64,000 nucleotides of DNA from Xanthomonas sp. (GTDB lineage Bacteria > Pseudomonadota > Gammaproteobacteria > Xanthomonadales > Xanthomonadaceae): the NCBI RefSeq assembly GCF_017163755.1, contig NZ_JAFIWC010000002.1, forward strand, positions 1 through 64,000, in the 5' to 3' direction. Each line of letters starts with the position of its first letter. Positions within the stretch are counted from its first letter, which is position 1. The notes below the pieces were generated by a model, which saw only the letters and a list, made by a program, of their open reading frames with translations, was not told where the DNA came from and did not search any database. Below, piece after piece: positions 23,431 through 29,527 of the stretch. The translations under genes were made by a program, and so were the position numbers.

Positions 23431-23589
23431 GCCGACGCCCTCTGCCAGGCTCCCATGGGACGCACCGGCGCCGCCCAGCGCACCAGCGCACCAGCGCCGC
23501 CGTGAACCCACGGATGCCTGCGCCTTCCCCCAATCCGGGTAAGCGGGCCGTCGCGCGGCGGCCGCATAATGGCGGGATGGAGACGACTC

Positions 23590-25422
23590 ATGCATAGCGG
23601 CGGCCTGGAGCTGGCGCTGGTCCTGCTGCTGGCCGCGGTGATCGCGGTGCCGGTGTTCAAGCGCCTGGGCCTGGGCGCGGTGCTGGCCTACCTGGCCGCC
23701 GGCGTGGTGCTGGGCCCGGACGGACTGGGCTTCGTGCAGAACACCGAGCGCATCCTCAATGCCGCCGAGATCGGCGTGGTGATGCTGCTGTTCCTGATCG
23801 GGCTGGAGCTGTCGCCGGCGCGGCTGAAACTGATGCGGCACTCGGTGTTCGGCGCCGGCACCGCGCAGGTGGTGCTGACCGCGCTGCCGCTCGGCGTGCT
23901 GCTGCTGTTCCTGGACATGGGCTGGAAGAGCGCGCTGGTGGTCGGCATCGCGCTGGCGCTGTCGTCCACCGCGGTGGGGCTGCAGCTGCTGGCCGAACGC
24001 AAGGCGCTCAACAGCGACTACGGGCGGCTGGGCTTCGCCATCCTGCTGTTCCAGGACCTGATCGCGATCCCGCTGCTGGCGGCGATCCCGCTGCTGGGCG
24101 GGGCCAAGAACGACACCCTGGCCTGGCCGGACGTGGCGCGCGCGCTCGGCGCGCTGGCGGTGGTGCTGCTGTTCGGAAGTTTCGTGCTGCGGCGGCTGTT
24201 CGGCGTGGTGGCGCGCACGCGCATGCCCGAGGTGTTCACCGCCAGCGCGCTACTGGTGGTGCTGGGCACCGCGTGGTTCATGCAACAGGCCGGGCTGAGC
24301 CCCAGCCTGGGCGCGTTCCTGGCCGGCGTGCTGCTGGCCGATTCGGAATTCCGCCACGAACTGGAGGCGCAGATCGAGCCGTTCCAGGGCCTGCTGCTGG
24401 GCGTGTTCTTCATCGCGGTGGGCATGGGCATCGACCTGGACCGGATCATCGCCGAGCCGTGGCTGGTCGCCGGCGGCGTGGCCACGCTGCTGCTGGTGAA
24501 GTTCAGCCTGCTGGTCGGCATCGCGCGGGTGGCGAAGCTGCCGTGGCGCAGCGCGCTGATGCTGGGCGGGCTGCTGTGGCTGGGCGGCGAGTTCGCGTTC
24601 GTGGTGTTCACCGAGGCGCAGCGCGTGCGGCTGCTCGACGATGCCAACCACGACCGGCTGGTGGCCATCGTCGGCGTGTCGATGGCGCTGACCCCGCTGC
24701 TGCTGATCGGCATCCAGCGCCTGCTCGACGGCAACGCGGACAAGGCCGGGCGCGCGCCGCCGAAACCCAGCGCCGCCTACGACACCGTCGACGAGCAGCG
24801 CCCGCAGGTGCTGATCGCCGGCATGGGCCGCTTCGGCCAGATCGTCGCGCGCATGCTCACCGCGCAACGCATCCCGTTCGTCGCGCTGGAGCACAACCCG
24901 GACACGGTGGAGGACCTGCGCCGCTTCGGCAACAAGCTGTACTACGGCGATCCCAGCCGCCCGGAGCTGCTGCGCGCGGCCGGCAGCGACGACATCCGCG
25001 TGTTCGTGGTGGCGATGGACGACCCGGACACCAACATCAAGACCACCCGGCTGATCCGGCGCCTGTATCCCAAGGCGCAGGTGTTCGCGCGCGCGCGCAA
25101 CCGCCAGCACGCATGGCGGCTGATGGACCTGGGCGCCGAACCGTTCCGCGAGGTGTTCGCCTCCAGCCTGGAGCTGAGCGAGCGGGTGCTGGTGAGCCTG
25201 GGCCTGCCGCCAGACACCGCGCGCGACCGCATCGCGCGCTTCCGCGACCACGACCGGCAGCTGCTGCGCGCGCAGCACCTGGTCTACGACGACGACGCGG
25301 CGGTGATTCAGACCTCGCGCGATGCGCGCACCGACCTGATGAAGCTGTTCGAGGCCGACGCCAGCGAGGCGCCCGGCGAAGGTACCGGCGATGCGTCGCC
25401 GAGGGCGAAGCGCGAGTCGTAG
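23590..25422 (+). CDS. CPA2-family cation:proton antiporter with TrkA-N domain (KefB/KefC type)
   Basis: The 610-residue protein has a 12-13 helix Na+/H+ exchanger domain (residues ~5-380, with LFLIGLELSPARLKL and LALSSTAVGLQLL). A Rossmann TrkA-N domain follows (~403-520, VLIAGMGRFGQIVARML nucleotide-binding loop). This matches glutathione-gated K+ efflux antiporters such as KefC and YbaL. It would sit in the inner membrane and exchange K+ for H+. GGAG lies 7 bases before ATG 23590. There is no separate KefF/KefG ancillary gene nearby, so gating by glutathione adducts is uncertain. Confidence 0.88.
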   Translation: MHSGGLELALVLLLAAVIAVPVFKRLGLGAVLAYLAAGVVLGPDGLGFVQNTERILNAAEIGVVMLLFLIGLELSPARLKLMRHSVFGAGTAQVVLTALPLGVLLLFLDMGWKSALVVGIALALSSTAVGLQLLAERKALNSDYGRLGFAILLFQDLIAIPLLAAIPLLGGAKNDTLAWPDVARALGALAVVLLFGSFVLRRLFGVVARTRMPEVFTASALLVVLGTAWFMQQAGLSPSLGAFLAGVLLADSEFRHELEAQIEPFQGLLLGVFFIAVGMGIDLDRIIAEPWLVAGGVATLLLVKFSLLVGIARVAKLPWRSALMLGGLLWLGGEFAFVVFTEAQRVRLLDDANHDRLVAIVGVSMALTPLLLIGIQRLLDGNADKAGRAPPKPSAAYDTVDEQRPQVLIAGMGRFGQIVARMLTAQRIPFVALEHNPDTVEDLRRFGNKLYYGDPSRPELLRAAGSDDIRVFVVAMDDPDTNIKTTRLIRRLYPKAQVFARARNRQHAWRLMDLGAEPFREVFASSLELSERVLVSLGLPPDTARDRIARFRDHDRQLLRAQHLVYDDDAAVIQTSRDARTDLMKLFEADASEAPGEGTGDASPRAKRES

Positions 25423-25585
25423 GGCGTGGTGGCGGTGCGGATACGGGGTCCGCTGGCCCACTTCGTCGCTTCGTTCAGCGCGACCGATGGCCCGATGCCA
25501 TCCGCAGGCGTGCCTGCAAGGGCCTGGCGAACTGCCGGCTGGAGCATTGCAGGAGGGCGTCGGCTGTGCCGGGAGCCGGAAGGTC

Positions 25586-25790
25586 TACCGCTTCGTTCGT
25601 CGCGGTTGAAACCGCTCCTACAGGAGCCTGCGGCGAGTCTGCTGGGGCACTGTAGGAGGGGCTTCAGCCCCGACTGTGACCGGAGCTGGGAAGTCCGCCG
25701 CTTCGTTCGTCGCGGTTGAAACCGCTCCTACAGGGACCTGCGGCAAGTCTGCTGGGGCACTGTAGGAGGGGCTGCAGCCCCGACCGGGGG
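25586..25790. repeat. Tandemly duplicated REP module downstream of zwf
   Basis: The segment CGTCGCGGTTGAAACCGCTCCTACAG ... CTGGGGCACTGTAGGAGGGGC is present twice about 117 bp apart (from ~25595 and ~25712). Each copy carries two oppositely oriented GTAG-type palindromes. It occupies much of the 25423-25898 gap, which has no gene. Confidence 0.82.
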
Positions 25791-25898
25791 CCGAAGCCTG
25801 CCATCGCGCCGCTTCGCCTGTCGCGACTGGAATCGCTGCTGCAAAGCGCCGCGACGCACTGCCGGCACCGTACCGCTGCCGGAGCGCCGCGCTACGGG

Positions 25899-27740
25899 CT
25901 AGCGCGCGGCCGGGCGCCGCTTGGCCGGGGCAGCGGACGGTTTTTTCGCCGCGCGCTTGCTCGCCTTCGCGGGCGCGGACTTCGCGGCCCGCTTGGGCTT
26001 TGCGGCACCGTCCGCCGCAGCCTTCCTGGTTGCGGCCGGCTTGGACGCGGCGGTGCTCCTCGGCGCGGCGGACCTGGAAGCCGGACCCTTCTTCGACGCC
26101 ACCGACTTGGAAGCCGCCGCCTTCCCGGATGCGGCGGGCGCGGCCGCGGCGCGCTTCGCCAGCGCCGGCGGCCGGGCGTCCGCGCCGTCGCTCGCGCGCC
26201 GCGGCGGCGGGCGGCGGCCTGCGGTCAGGGTGCGCCAGCTGTGGCCGCCGTTGAGCGCCAGCAGCGCGTCGGCCGTCGCCGGGCCGGCGCTGCCGGCCGG
26301 GTACTGCGCCACCTCGTCGGCCGAGCCTTTCCAGGCATCGAGGATCGGTTGCACGATGCGCCAGGCCGCCTCGACCATCGTCGCGTCCTGGAACAGCCCC
26401 GCCTCGCCGTTCATGCAGTCCTGCAGCAGGCGCTCGTAGCCGACCGTGTATTCCTTGGGGAACCAGTCGCGGTAGCGGAAGTCCATCCGCACCGGCGCCA
26501 GGCTCACCTGCGCGCCCGGGCGCTTGACGTCGAACTGCAGCGAGATGCCTTCGTCCGGCTGGATGTGCAGCACCAGCCAGTCGGGGCCGTAGCCGCCGAT
26601 CTCGGCGCTGCGCAGCGGCGCCAGCGGCGCGGGCTTGAAGCGGATCGCGATCTCGGTGGTGCGCTCGCGCAGGCGCTTGCCGGTGCGCAGGTAGAACGGC
26701 ACCCCGGCCCAGCGCCAGGTGTCCACCGCCAGCTTCATCGCCACGTAGGTCTCGGTGTTGGAATCGGCCGGCACCGTGTCTTCCTCGCGGTAGCCGGGCA
26801 CCGCGTTGCGGCCGATCGCGCCGGCCGCGTACTGGCCGCGCACCACGTCGCCGGGGGCCAGCGGCCGCACCGCCTCGATCACCTCGGCGCGGCGGCGCAG
26901 CATCGCCGCGGTGGTGAACGCCGCCGGCGGTTCCATCGCGATCATCGCCAGCAGCTGGAACAGGTGGTTGGGCACCATGTCGCGCAGGCAGCCGGTGGGG
27001 TCGTAGAAACGCCCGCGGCCTTCCACGCCGATGGTCTCGGCGGCGGTGATCTGCACGTGGTCGATGCGGTCGCGGTTCCACACCGGCTCGAACAGGCCGT
27101 TGGCAAAGCGGAAGGCGAGGATGTTCTGCACCGTCTCCTTGCCCAGGAAGTGGTCGATGCGGAACACCTGGTCCTCGTCGAGCACGCGGCCGACGATGGC
27201 GTTGAGCTCCTTGGCGCTGCGCAGATCGTGGCCGAACGGCTTCTCCACGATCACCCGGCGCCAACCGCCGTCGGCGCGCTGCTCGACCAGCCCGGCGGCG
27301 CCCAGCTGCTCGATCGCCGGGCCGAAGAAGCGCGCCGCGGTGGCCAGGTAGAACAGCACGTTGCCGCCGCTGCCGTACTGCGCGTCGTACTTGGCGATCA
27401 CCTCGCCCAGCGCGCGGTAGGTGGCCGGATCGGCGAAGTCGCCGCGCAGGTAGTGCAGGCGCGCGCGCAGCCAGTTCCACACGTCCTCGTCCATGCCGTC
27501 GGCCTTGAACTCGGCGTCGCGGTCGGCCATCAGCCCGCGCAAGGCGTTGCCGAGCATGCGCCGCCAGCTGAGCTCGGTGATGTCGCCGTGGTCCACGCCG
27601 ATCACCGCGAACTCCTCCGGCAAGGCGCCGCTGCGGCGCAGGTTGTACAGCGCCGGCAGCACCAGCCGGCGGGTCAGGTCGCCGCGTGCGCCGAATACCA
27701 CGATCAGGCAGGGAGGGGTTCTTACCGTCGCGTCGCTCAT
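25899..27740 (-). CDS. zwf: Glucose-6-phosphate 1-dehydrogenase with a histone H1-like C-terminal tail
   Basis: The enzyme oxidises glucose 6-phosphate with NADP+, opening the pentose phosphate and Entner-Doudoroff routes. Residues 1-~505 are a complete G6PDH: coenzyme loop VFGARGDLTRR, EKPFG, and the active-site signature RIDHFLGKE. The usual family ends near residue 490-500, but this protein runs on for about 108 residues rich in Ala, Lys, Arg, Pro and Ser (KRAAAAPAASGKAAASK, KPKRAAKSAPAKASKRAAKK), like bacterial histone H1/AlgP-type tails. ATG 27740 overlaps the stop of the GH15 gene (ATGA), so the two are cotranscribed. Confidence 0.9.
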   Translation of the reverse strand: MSDATVRTPPCLIVVFGARGDLTRRLVLPALYNLRRSGALPEEFAVIGVDHGDITELSWRRMLGNALRGLMADRDAEFKADGMDEDVWNWLRARLHYLRGDFADPATYRALGEVIAKYDAQYGSGGNVLFYLATAARFFGPAIEQLGAAGLVEQRADGGWRRVIVEKPFGHDLRSAKELNAIVGRVLDEDQVFRIDHFLGKETVQNILAFRFANGLFEPVWNRDRIDHVQITAAETIGVEGRGRFYDPTGCLRDMVPNHLFQLLAMIAMEPPAAFTTAAMLRRRAEVIEAVRPLAPGDVVRGQYAAGAIGRNAVPGYREEDTVPADSNTETYVAMKLAVDTWRWAGVPFYLRTGKRLRERTTEIAIRFKPAPLAPLRSAEIGGYGPDWLVLHIQPDEGISLQFDVKRPGAQVSLAPVRMDFRYRDWFPKEYTVGYERLLQDCMNGEAGLFQDATMVEAAWRIVQPILDAWKGSADEVAQYPAGSAGPATADALLALNGGHSWRTLTAGRRPPPRRASDGADARPPALAKRAAAAPAASGKAAASKSVASKKGPASRSAAPRSTAASKPAATRKAAADGAAKPKRAAKSAPAKASKRAAKKPSAAPAKRRPAAR

Positions 27741-29527
27741 GGATGGGTTTCCTGTTCGCCGATTAGACCGTGCAGGCGCAATGCGGCGTGGACCAGCGCC
27801 ACGTGCGAATAGCCCTGCGGGAAGTTGCCGAGCATGCGTTGGCTGCGCGGATCGTATTCTTCGGCCAGCAGGCCGACGTCGTTGCACAACCCGAGCAGGC
27901 GCTCGAACAGTTCGCGCGCCTGCGCGGTGCGGCCGAGCAGCGCGTAGTTCTCCACCAGCCAGAAGCTGCAGGCGATGAAGGTGCCCTCGCCCGGCGGCAG
28001 GCCGTCGCCGCTGGCCTCGTCGGCGCGGTAGCGCTCGACCAGTCCGCCGGTGCTCAGCCGTTGCGCGATCGCATCGGCGGTGGCGGCCACGCGCGGATCG
28101 TCCGCCGGCAGGAAGCCGATCAGCGGGATCAGCAGCGTCGCCGCGTCCAGCCGCTCGCTGCCGTAGCTCTGCACGAAATAGCCGTCGCGGTGCACGCCCT
28201 GCTCCAGCACCTGCGCGCGGACCTCGTCGGCCAACGCGCGCCAGCGCGCACGCTGCGCGGCGTCGCCATCGGTGACGCCGTCGCGCGCGCCGCAGTCGAA
28301 CGCCAGCCACGCCATCACCTTCGAATGGACGAAGTGGCGGCGCTGGTCGCGGATCTCCCAGATGCCCTCGTCCGGCTCGCGCCAGCACTGCTCCAGCACC
28401 TCCAGCAGCTGCCGCGCCAGCGAGCGCCCGTGTACCGCGCTGGGCATGCCCTGCTGGTGGGCGCGATGGAACGCGGCGATCACCTCGCCGTACACGTCGA
28501 GCTGGAACTGCGCGGCCGCGGCATTGCCCACGCGCACCGGCCGCGCGCCCTCGTAGCCGGGCAGCCAGTCCACTTCCCATTCGGGCATGCGCCGTTCGCC
28601 GCCGATGCCGTACAGCGCCTGCAACTGGTCCGGCGACCCGGCCACGGTGCGCTGCAGCCAGGTGTGGAAGGCGCCGGCTTCGTCGGAATAGCCGGCTGCG
28701 CGCAGCGCGGTCAGGGTGAACACCGCATCGCGCAGCCAGCAGAAGCGGTAGTCCCAGTTGCGCTCGCCGCCGAGCCGTTCCGGCAGCGAGGTGGTCGGCG
28801 AGGCGACGATCGCGCCGGTGGGCAGGTAGCTCAGTCCCTTGAGCACCACCAGCGAGCGCTTGACCGCCTCGGTCCATGGACCGGCGTCGATGCAGCGCCG
28901 CGACCAGCCGCGCCAGAACGCCTCGGTCTGCGCCAGCGCGTCCTGCGGCGCCAGCGGTGGCGGCAGCGCGTGGTGCGAGACGCCGTGGCTGAGCACGAAC
29001 CAGGTGCTCTCGCCTTCGCCCAGGGTGAACTCGGCGTCGGTGGTGAAGCCGTGGCCCTGCAGCTGCTGCGGGGTGCGCAGCGCGATCTGGTCGGGCCCGG
29101 CGATCGCCTGCAGCCCGCCGTCGATCTGTGAGACCCAGGGGATGGTGCGGCCGTAGTTGAAACGCAGCTGCAGTTCCATGCGCATCGGCACGCGCCCGCG
29201 CACGCCGCGCACGATCCGCACCACATGGTTGTGCACGTCGTCGTCGAGGCTGGCGACCATGAAGTCCACCACCGCCACCGCGCCGTCCGCGGTATGGAAC
29301 TCGGTCTCCAGCACCAGGCTGCCGTCGCGATAGTGGCGGCGGCTGCTGAACTCGGCGATGGGCGCGATCGACCAGCGCCCGTTGTCCGGCGTGCCCAGCA
29401 GCGCAGCGAACATGGCATCGGAATCGAAGCGCGGCAGGCACAGCCAGTCGATCGAGCCGCGGATATCCACCAGCGCCGCGCTGCGGCAGTTGCCGAGCAT
29501 GGCGTAGTCCTCGATGCGCGCCACCAT
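27737..29527 (-). CDS. Glycoside hydrolase family 15 protein (glucoamylase/trehalase-like)
   Basis: The 596-residue cytoplasmic protein has the N-terminal beta-domain (IEDYAMLGNCRSAALVDIRGSIDWLCLPRFD) and the (alpha/alpha)6 catalytic barrel of GH15. NWDYRFCWLRDAVFTL and EGTFIACSFWLVENYAL carry the region of the catalytic acids. Relatives hydrolyse alpha-glucans or trehalose to glucose, and coupling to zwf by an ATGA overlap suggests that the released glucose feeds glucose 6-phosphate oxidation; that link is inference. Start ATG 29527 fits the family N-terminus exactly. Confidence 0.88.
   Translation of the reverse strand: MVARIEDYAMLGNCRSAALVDIRGSIDWLCLPRFDSDAMFAALLGTPDNGRWSIAPIAEFSSRRHYRDGSLVLETEFHTADGAVAVVDFMVASLDDDVHNHVVRIVRGVRGRVPMRMELQLRFNYGRTIPWVSQIDGGLQAIAGPDQIALRTPQQLQGHGFTTDAEFTLGEGESTWFVLSHGVSHHALPPPLAPQDALAQTEAFWRGWSRRCIDAGPWTEAVKRSLVVLKGLSYLPTGAIVASPTTSLPERLGGERNWDYRFCWLRDAVFTLTALRAAGYSDEAGAFHTWLQRTVAGSPDQLQALYGIGGERRMPEWEVDWLPGYEGARPVRVGNAAAAQFQLDVYGEVIAAFHRAHQQGMPSAVHGRSLARQLLEVLEQCWREPDEGIWEIRDQRRHFVHSKVMAWLAFDCGARDGVTDGDAAQRARWRALADEVRAQVLEQGVHRDGYFVQSYGSERLDAATLLIPLIGFLPADDPRVAATADAIAQRLSTGGLVERYRADEASGDGLPPGEGTFIACSFWLVENYALLGRTAQARELFERLLGLCNDVGLLAEEYDPRSQRMLGNFPQGYSHVALVHAALRLHGLIGEQETHP

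Follow-up and report, generated by a model that had tools for sequence, protein, structure and literature searches.

A basic, apparently charge-selected C-terminal tail on a second glucose-6-phosphate dehydrogenase of Xanthomonas and its relatives

Introduction

HU proteins of the HupB type carry a low-complexity basic tail on a folded domain. Lys-rich regions of topoisomerases and Ku are described, in the part cited of a review, as means of nonspecific DNA binding (PMC6821194). The closest described tails are those of AlgP and PhaF of Pseudomonas, which are Ala/Lys/Pro-rich, bind DNA, and organise polyphosphate (polyP) or PHA granules, as stated in the sections cited of PMC9239181. According to the same sections, AlgP seems to join the nucleoid at large in the absence of polyP kinases, and the number of its repeats (25 perfect KPAA repeats) differs among isolates (PMC9239181).

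Here we describe a tail of comparable make-up on the second glucose-6-phosphate dehydrogenase (G6PDH; gene zwf2) of a Xanthomonas sp., encoded in the window, i.e., the whole 64,000-nucleotide stretch of DNA that was analysed. Like the tails of AlgP and PhaF, it is cationic, Ala/Lys/Pro-rich, C-terminal, and predicted to be disordered, and its variation in length echoes the variable repeat number of AlgP. However, it is borne by a metabolic enzyme, we infer its binding from this likeness, and it lacks a tandem KPAA array, as KPAA occurs once (by eye), whereas AlgP has 25 perfect repeats. A basic low-complexity tail appended to a folded domain is also found in topoisomerase I, Ku, and HupB-type HU, but their folded domains already act on DNA, whereas that of zwf2 is an oxidoreductase. 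The zwf2 tail probably works like an AlgP/PhaF-type tail and, lacking the KPAA array, is not a member of that group. Its novelty lies in the pairing, since a tail of familiar type sits on an enzyme where none was expected, and no description of it was found in the open-licence text of PubMed Central, which does not include subscription papers.

The zwf2 gene, its catalytic core and its tail

The gene and its parts are as follows.

25899..27740, minus strand: zwf2, encoding the second glucose-6-phosphate dehydrogenase of 613 aa, from an ATG start to a TAG stop (open reading frame and family matches)
26226..27740, minus strand: G6PDH catalytic core, residues 1-505, with RIDHFLGKE at 194-202 (Pfam/NCBIfam, phmmer, AlphaFold2, Foldseek)
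26196..26225, minus strand: proximal tail, residues 506-515, TAGRRPPPRR, a near-invariant basic Pro-rich linker (comparison of 42 tails)
25902..26195, minus strand: distal tail, residues 516-613, a drifting Ala/Lys/Arg/Pro/Ser low-complexity polycation (composition, pLDDT)

That a complete G6PDH domain precedes the tail, as the original prediction had it, is borne out by two complete Pfam domains, G6PD_N (residues 14-206) and G6PD_C (208-503, 296 of 296 positions covered), and by a nearly full-length match to TIGR00871 (residues 10-503, profile positions 2-484 of 486), which at 563.7 bits lies above the cut-off of 400.6; the match to NF009492 falls slightly under its own (427.6 vs. 428). The closest solved relative by sequence is PDB 9emm, the Synechocystis G6PDH with OpcA (phmmer E 2.4e-133, residues 7-505), whose aligned chain stops at zwf2 residue 505. 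The AlphaFold2 model (mean pLDDT 76), for which the input was an alignment of 34 window and locus proteins, groups with G6PDHs in Foldseek (9emm_B, E 3e-52, 44% identity). Among the first 50 ten-residue blocks of this model, 36 average a pLDDT of at least 80, with lower values near residues 201-220 and 371-440. The RIDHFLGKE stretch conforms to RIDHxLGKE, which we take to be the substrate site of G6PDH, and its residues R194, I195, D196, H197, L199, G200, and K201 are invariant in the 34 aligned sequences. The protein therefore matches bacterial G6PDH (zwf; TIGR00871, 9emm) over the full length of the core; the difference is the tail, found in none of 35 homologous loci outside Lysobacterales among the best 80 of 112 relatives, in which at most 11 residues follow the core.

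The tail comprises 108 residues (506-613) in frame with the core (25899-26225 on the minus strand, 324 coding nucleotides plus the stop codon). It consists of 40 Ala, 15 Lys, 14 Arg, 14 Pro, 12 Ser, 5 Gly, 3 Thr, 3 Asp, 1 Leu, and 1 Val (37% Ala, 14% Lys, 13% Arg, 13% Pro), has a net charge of +26, and, with pLDDT below 50 at residues 509-600 and 602-610, is predicted to be disordered. Composition and model thus agree with the in-frame, Ala/Lys/Arg/Pro-rich, disordered tail of ~108 residues originally proposed; the accompanying claim that it is H1-like stands for composition only, as the isolated tail matched no Pfam or NCBIfam family at E up to 1, including Histone H1, Hc1, and Hc2 in Pfam, in searches that handle low-complexity sequence poorly. 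The core motif of AT-hooks is RGRP; by eye it is absent from the zwf2 tail, in which GRRPPPRR is present. A sub-threshold match to a valine--tRNA ligase tail (E 0.039) was put down to composition. In the proximal tail the consensus is T[AP]GR[KR]PPPRR, with T506, G508, R509, P512, and P513 in all 42 tails compared and R515 in 41; a further congener with a 35-aa tail (L149) deviates from it (APGRRPPYRR). Lys makes up 17.4% of the tails and 2.6% of the cores (means of 42 genes); the base frequencies of the tails, taken position by position, would give 4.4%. Since Lys is about four times commoner than base composition predicts, the composition is not a high-G+C accident, and G+C bias is ruled out as the source of the basic run.

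A sequencing frameshift after residue ~505, which had been named as an observation that would speak against the tail, is excluded: a tail of the same kind, with the same first residue, is intact in 42 genes (41 from named genomes and our own, from the best 80 of 112 relatives), and with further members of the genus added there are 56 distinct intact tails, all open and basic. These 56 tails, together with the third-position excess of changes given below, lead us to reject a frameshift or lost-stop artefact. An antisense open reading frame (25921-26439, plus strand) was set aside, as the spacing of the changes is that of a gene read in the sense frame.

Paralogues and gene neighbourhood

The product of zwf2 is a second, non-canonical G6PDH paralogue. 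The other zwf of the genome is 33% identical to it, has no tail, and adjoins genes that read, from their translations, as glucokinase (glk)- and 6-phosphogluconolactonase (pgl)-like; canonical zwf likewise lacks a tail in all 11 congener loci read. In X. oryzae pv. oryzicola, a zwf gene is reported to influence polysaccharide, motility, and virulence (Guo, 2015, cited in PMC7018688), and a Tn-seq study of X. hortorum on lettuce includes a zwf among its tabulated genes (PMC9040725); in both cases the text cited leaves unstated which paralogue is meant.

Two neighbours of zwf2 were identified.

27737..29527, minus strand: GH15 trehalase/glucoamylase-like gene (Pfam Glyco_hydro_15 and TREH_N)
23569..25422, plus strand: cation/H+ antiporter-like gene (Pfam Na_H_Exchanger and TrkA_N), a convergent flanking landmark outside the unit

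The TGA of the GH15 gene overlaps the ATG of zwf2 by 4 nt (ATGA), and the GH15 gene is likely its co-translated partner. Upstream GH15 genes occur at 40 of 43 tailed loci found among the best 80 of 112 relatives. Two of the three remaining loci (L013, L031) have less than 900 bases of upstream DNA to examine; at the third, zwf2 of X. albilineans (L038), the 3 kb before the gene gave no match to GH15, in contrast to every other tailed locus with upstream DNA of that length. In one outside locus, that of an alphaproteobacterial relative (L042), the G6PDH gene is preceded by a 6-phosphogluconate dehydrogenase-like gene and followed by 6-phosphogluconolactonase and GH15 genes, which suggests that a pentose-phosphate gene setting may be ancestral; the remaining 34 outside loci (among the best 80 of 112 relatives) showed no GH15 gene within 3 kb. 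Downstream of zwf2, the window contains a REP-like repeat of 110 nt, with inverted arms, in two tandem copies (89% alike) at 25561-25780 and a third such piece of 37 nt at 25807-25843.

Distribution and origin of the tail

The scan of genome contigs gave 77 loci from the best 80 of 112 relatives; one of its six patterns lies inside the tail, so that it leans slightly toward tailed genes. Within these limits, the tail occurs in all 43 Lysobacterales loci including our own (42 intact, 1 frame-broken), among them a MAG and '[Pseudomonas] boreopolis', which the tree puts inside the group. The frame-broken zwf2 is that of X. phaseoli ATCC 49119 (L056), whose core loses its frame at about residue 278 and whose downstream piece retains the tail. 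Whole-genome searches, in line with the proposal that tail length be compared across the genus, found zwf2 in 19 of 20 own-genus genomes and a tail of 35-118 aa in all 19. The remaining genome, a 3.5 Mb congener (G023, L152), has canonical zwf alone and gave no zwf2 match, so zwf2 is dispensable there; a small 3.7 Mb genome (G012, L150) keeps zwf2 with a tail of 74 aa and net +14. The tail is thus a real and clade-wide feature.

Of 60 genomes drawn evenly from the family, 8 gave zwf2-grade matches, all 8 tailed, and the 20 other G6PDH matches read (L168-L187) were all tailless. Of nine other G6PDH matches from an earlier draw of 12, eight (L125-L131, L133) lack a tail of this kind. The ninth, a canonical-type zwf fragment of another genus (L132), terminates in the short basic stretch RRRGRSGGGA, perhaps an independent small basic end. 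Some family genera hold a third, tailless G6PDH type (L125-L128), which scores about equally to both paralogues of our genome; L168-L187, scored against zwf2 only, perhaps belong to it as well.

In an IQ-TREE phylogeny of 75 cores (42 tailed, 33 tailless), the tailed genes occupy one side of one branch (support 100/100), which is recovered in 100% of 200 bootstrap trees. This arrangement fits one gain and is consistent with a single origin of the tail. Left out of the 75-row tree were L072 (coordinate artefact) and L063 (stop inside coordinates), and out of both tree and tail statistics L056 (frame-broken) and L002 (canonical paralogue). In the midpoint-rooted core tree the tailed clade sits among alphaproteobacterial and acidobacterial genes, a position that makes acquisition of zwf2 by transfer plausible.

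Charge and sequence in tail evolution

The 56 distinct tails range from 27 to 118 aa at a net charge per residue of 0.268 +/- 0.026, and length and net charge correlate at r = 0.95. Tail divergence was followed in 16 independent sister pairs (32 of the 42 genes), which lie within few genera and are a small sample of history. Between sisters, core identity is 87-100% and tail identity 46-95% (tails differ by 5-54% of residues), and dN/dS is 0.18-0.74 in the tail vs. 0-0.21 in the core. Changes at the first, second, and third codon positions number 383, 310, and 674 in the tail and 180, 112, and 1220 in the core. Because intact proteins were aligned, whole-codon length differences between tails provide no independent test.

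These tails were compared with a drift simulation in which each started from its sister and received the observed number of changes, stops being forbidden; the 16 pairs were run in both directions, so that the resulting 32 comparisons count each pair twice. Acidic residues (D+E) numbered 63 observed vs. 212 simulated and basic ones (K+R) 891 vs. 680. The observed net charge was reached by at most 5% of drift runs in 28 of the 32 directed comparisons, although such a null is also exceeded under ordinary residue-level constraint; three of the four comparisons that were not unusual involve the most similar tails. Turnover of K/R is balanced, with 66 vs. 69 positions basic on one side only, 378 shared, and 3 charge reversals, in alignments that are uncertain for tails and in which aligners pair like with like. 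As both K+R and D+E lie far from the drift expectation, selection seems to hold the charge of the tail rather than its sequence.

Synonymous divergence of the tail exceeds that of the core in 14 of 16 pairs. For X. euroxanthea and X. arboricola it amounts to 0.67 in the tail vs. 0.19 in the core, and in three pairs (L005/L008, L011/L053, L021/L022) it is 3-4 times higher in the tail. The excess could come from recombination, relaxed codon use, or misalignment.

Possible function of the tail

We propose, with a probability of roughly 0.6, that the tail is an electrostatic tether holding the second G6PDH on a polyanion, nucleic acid in the first place and polyphosphate in the second. It is read in this way because the tails of AlgP and PhaF, which are of such make-up, bind DNA or granules. 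G6PDHs are dimers or tetramers, and each particle would thus carry about +50 to +100 of flexible charge. The linker T[AP]GRxPPPRR, stiff, basic, and Pro-rich, would keep the polycation away from the core; alternatively, this near-invariant stretch may itself touch the core or some fixed partner. The distal polycation would attach to a large polyanion irrespective of sequence, most likely nucleic acid (nucleoid DNA or RNA), with polyphosphate granules next. The enzyme, a presumed second source of NADPH (or NADH) produced together with the GH15 sugar hydrolase, would then be concentrated at the nucleoid or granule instead of being free in the cytosol, and canonical tailless zwf would serve the Entner-Doudoroff pathway. 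Against the tether, composition alone cannot separate DNA from RNA, polyP, acidic proteins, or membrane, some species have tails of only 27-35 aa, so that 100 residues are not needed everywhere, and the 3.5 Mb congener does without zwf2.

It is rather unlikely that polyP, and not nucleic acid, is the main partner, in which case the tail would dock G6PDH on granules of polyP in the manner of the AlgP tail. AlgP, with its K/P/A-rich tail, is described in the text cited as joining these granules and as notable there for its net charge (PMC9239181), and the zwf2 tail falls in the same composition class. However, the identified neighbours of zwf2 are GH15 and antiporter genes and not polyP genes, and the word 'dehydrogenase' is absent from the main text of PMC9239181. 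Moreover, AlgP is reported in the part cited to bind DNA as well (PMC9239181), so this reading and that of a nucleic-acid partner overlap.

Still less likely, in our view, is a nonspecific entropic bristle or an aid to solubility or desiccation tolerance, whose charge keeps the enzyme soluble with nothing bound. It would account for the weak residue constraint evident from dN/dS, for the drifting length, and for a distal part without a fixed motif. Yet for such a role charge of either sign, or mixed charge, would do, whereas acidic residues are avoided and K+R maintained, and the canonical zwf copies read do without a tail.

A link to PHA, in which tailed G6PDH and similarly tailed PhaE meet at carbonosome or nucleoid sites of NADPH use, appears very improbable. 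It draws on the PHA-synthase III subunit PhaE of the same genome (L095), which bears an Ala/Lys/Pro tail, and on PhaF, whose tails are thought, in the text cited, to tie PHA granules to DNA (PMC9239181). The 4-mers shared with the PhaE tail show a slight excess (171 vs. 134.7 shuffled, top shuffle 166), but 5-mers (28 vs. 26.4) and 6-mers (3 vs. 4.0) do not. The last alternative, a nonfunctional run-on that lost its stop codon and drifts unselected, suits the fast divergence and the raised synonymous divergence of the tail but is already contradicted by 56 of 56 distinct intact tails being open and basic, by the third-position excess of changes, and by charge kept against drift, and we give it hardly any weight.

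Taking up the tether again together with the history of the gene, we suggest tentatively, at somewhat less than even odds, that this lineage made its second G6PDH nucleoid-bound (or polyP-bound) by means of a once-evolved tail on a possibly acquired gene. If so, the first step of the oxidative pentose-phosphate pathway would be anchored on DNA or on a DNA/polyP condensate, reducing power would be supplied locally, e.g., for DNA protection or deoxynucleotide supply, and the state of the nucleoid would perhaps tune flux. To our knowledge, the enzyme would then be without precedent among central-carbon dehydrogenases in having a chromatin-type anchor that is dedicated and selected. Whether bacterial cells position the enzymes of central metabolism deliberately is an open question, and its usual subjects have no visible targeting part. 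In zwf2 the putative targeting part is visible and can be removed with the catalytic core untouched, and its presence on one of two paralogues per cell is a built-in control. The length of the tail varies naturally (27-118 aa), and its charge appears to be under selection. All this opens tethering, and what it would mean for metabolism, to direct test.

Other basic tails in the same genome

H1-like proteins were sought by a scan of composition, as bias-corrected scoring is poor on such sequence. The scan covered one sixth of the genome (864 kb out of 5.07 Mb), made up of the window, chosen for the finding, and 40 stretches of 20 kb each, two of them chosen for weak matches, and it filtered for basic low-complexity 40-mers in closed open reading frames of at least 90 codons. 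Four proteins pass: the zwf2 G6PDH, an H-NS-family protein, RNase R (an N-terminal segment), and PhaE; when a stricter 50-mer filter was applied to the first 464 kb, G6PDH and PhaE were left. Going by family, the H-NS-family protein and RNase R act on nucleic acids and PhaE on PHA granules. No other enzyme of central metabolism stands beside G6PDH among the four in these 864 kb of one genome, which agrees with the earlier view that such tails are rare on metabolic enzymes. Two weak tail-similarity matches elsewhere in the genome were rejected, one with stops inside (L081) and one apparently spurious, in a wrong-frame open reading frame (L082).

PhaE (L095:10670-11836, minus strand), a class III PHA synthase subunit (Pfam PHA_synth_III_E, with a Phasin match barely below the cut-off), ends in an Ala/Lys/Pro-rich H1-like tail that recalls PhaF. 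The RNase R segment shares 4- and 5-mers with the G6PDH tails above shuffled expectation, and 6-mers not. The H-NS-family protein (L083:16765-17268, plus strand) has a Lys/Ala C-terminal tail whose segment AAPAKKTAKKAGKKTAKKASK is in the style of the G6PDH tails; it differs in having an H-NS C-terminal domain (Pfam Histone_HNS), which G6PDH does not. Words such as KKTAKKA are common to it and some G6PDH tails, and it shares 33 6-mers with the 42 tails, which are mutually related and not independent, against 3.0 +/- 2.1 after shuffling.
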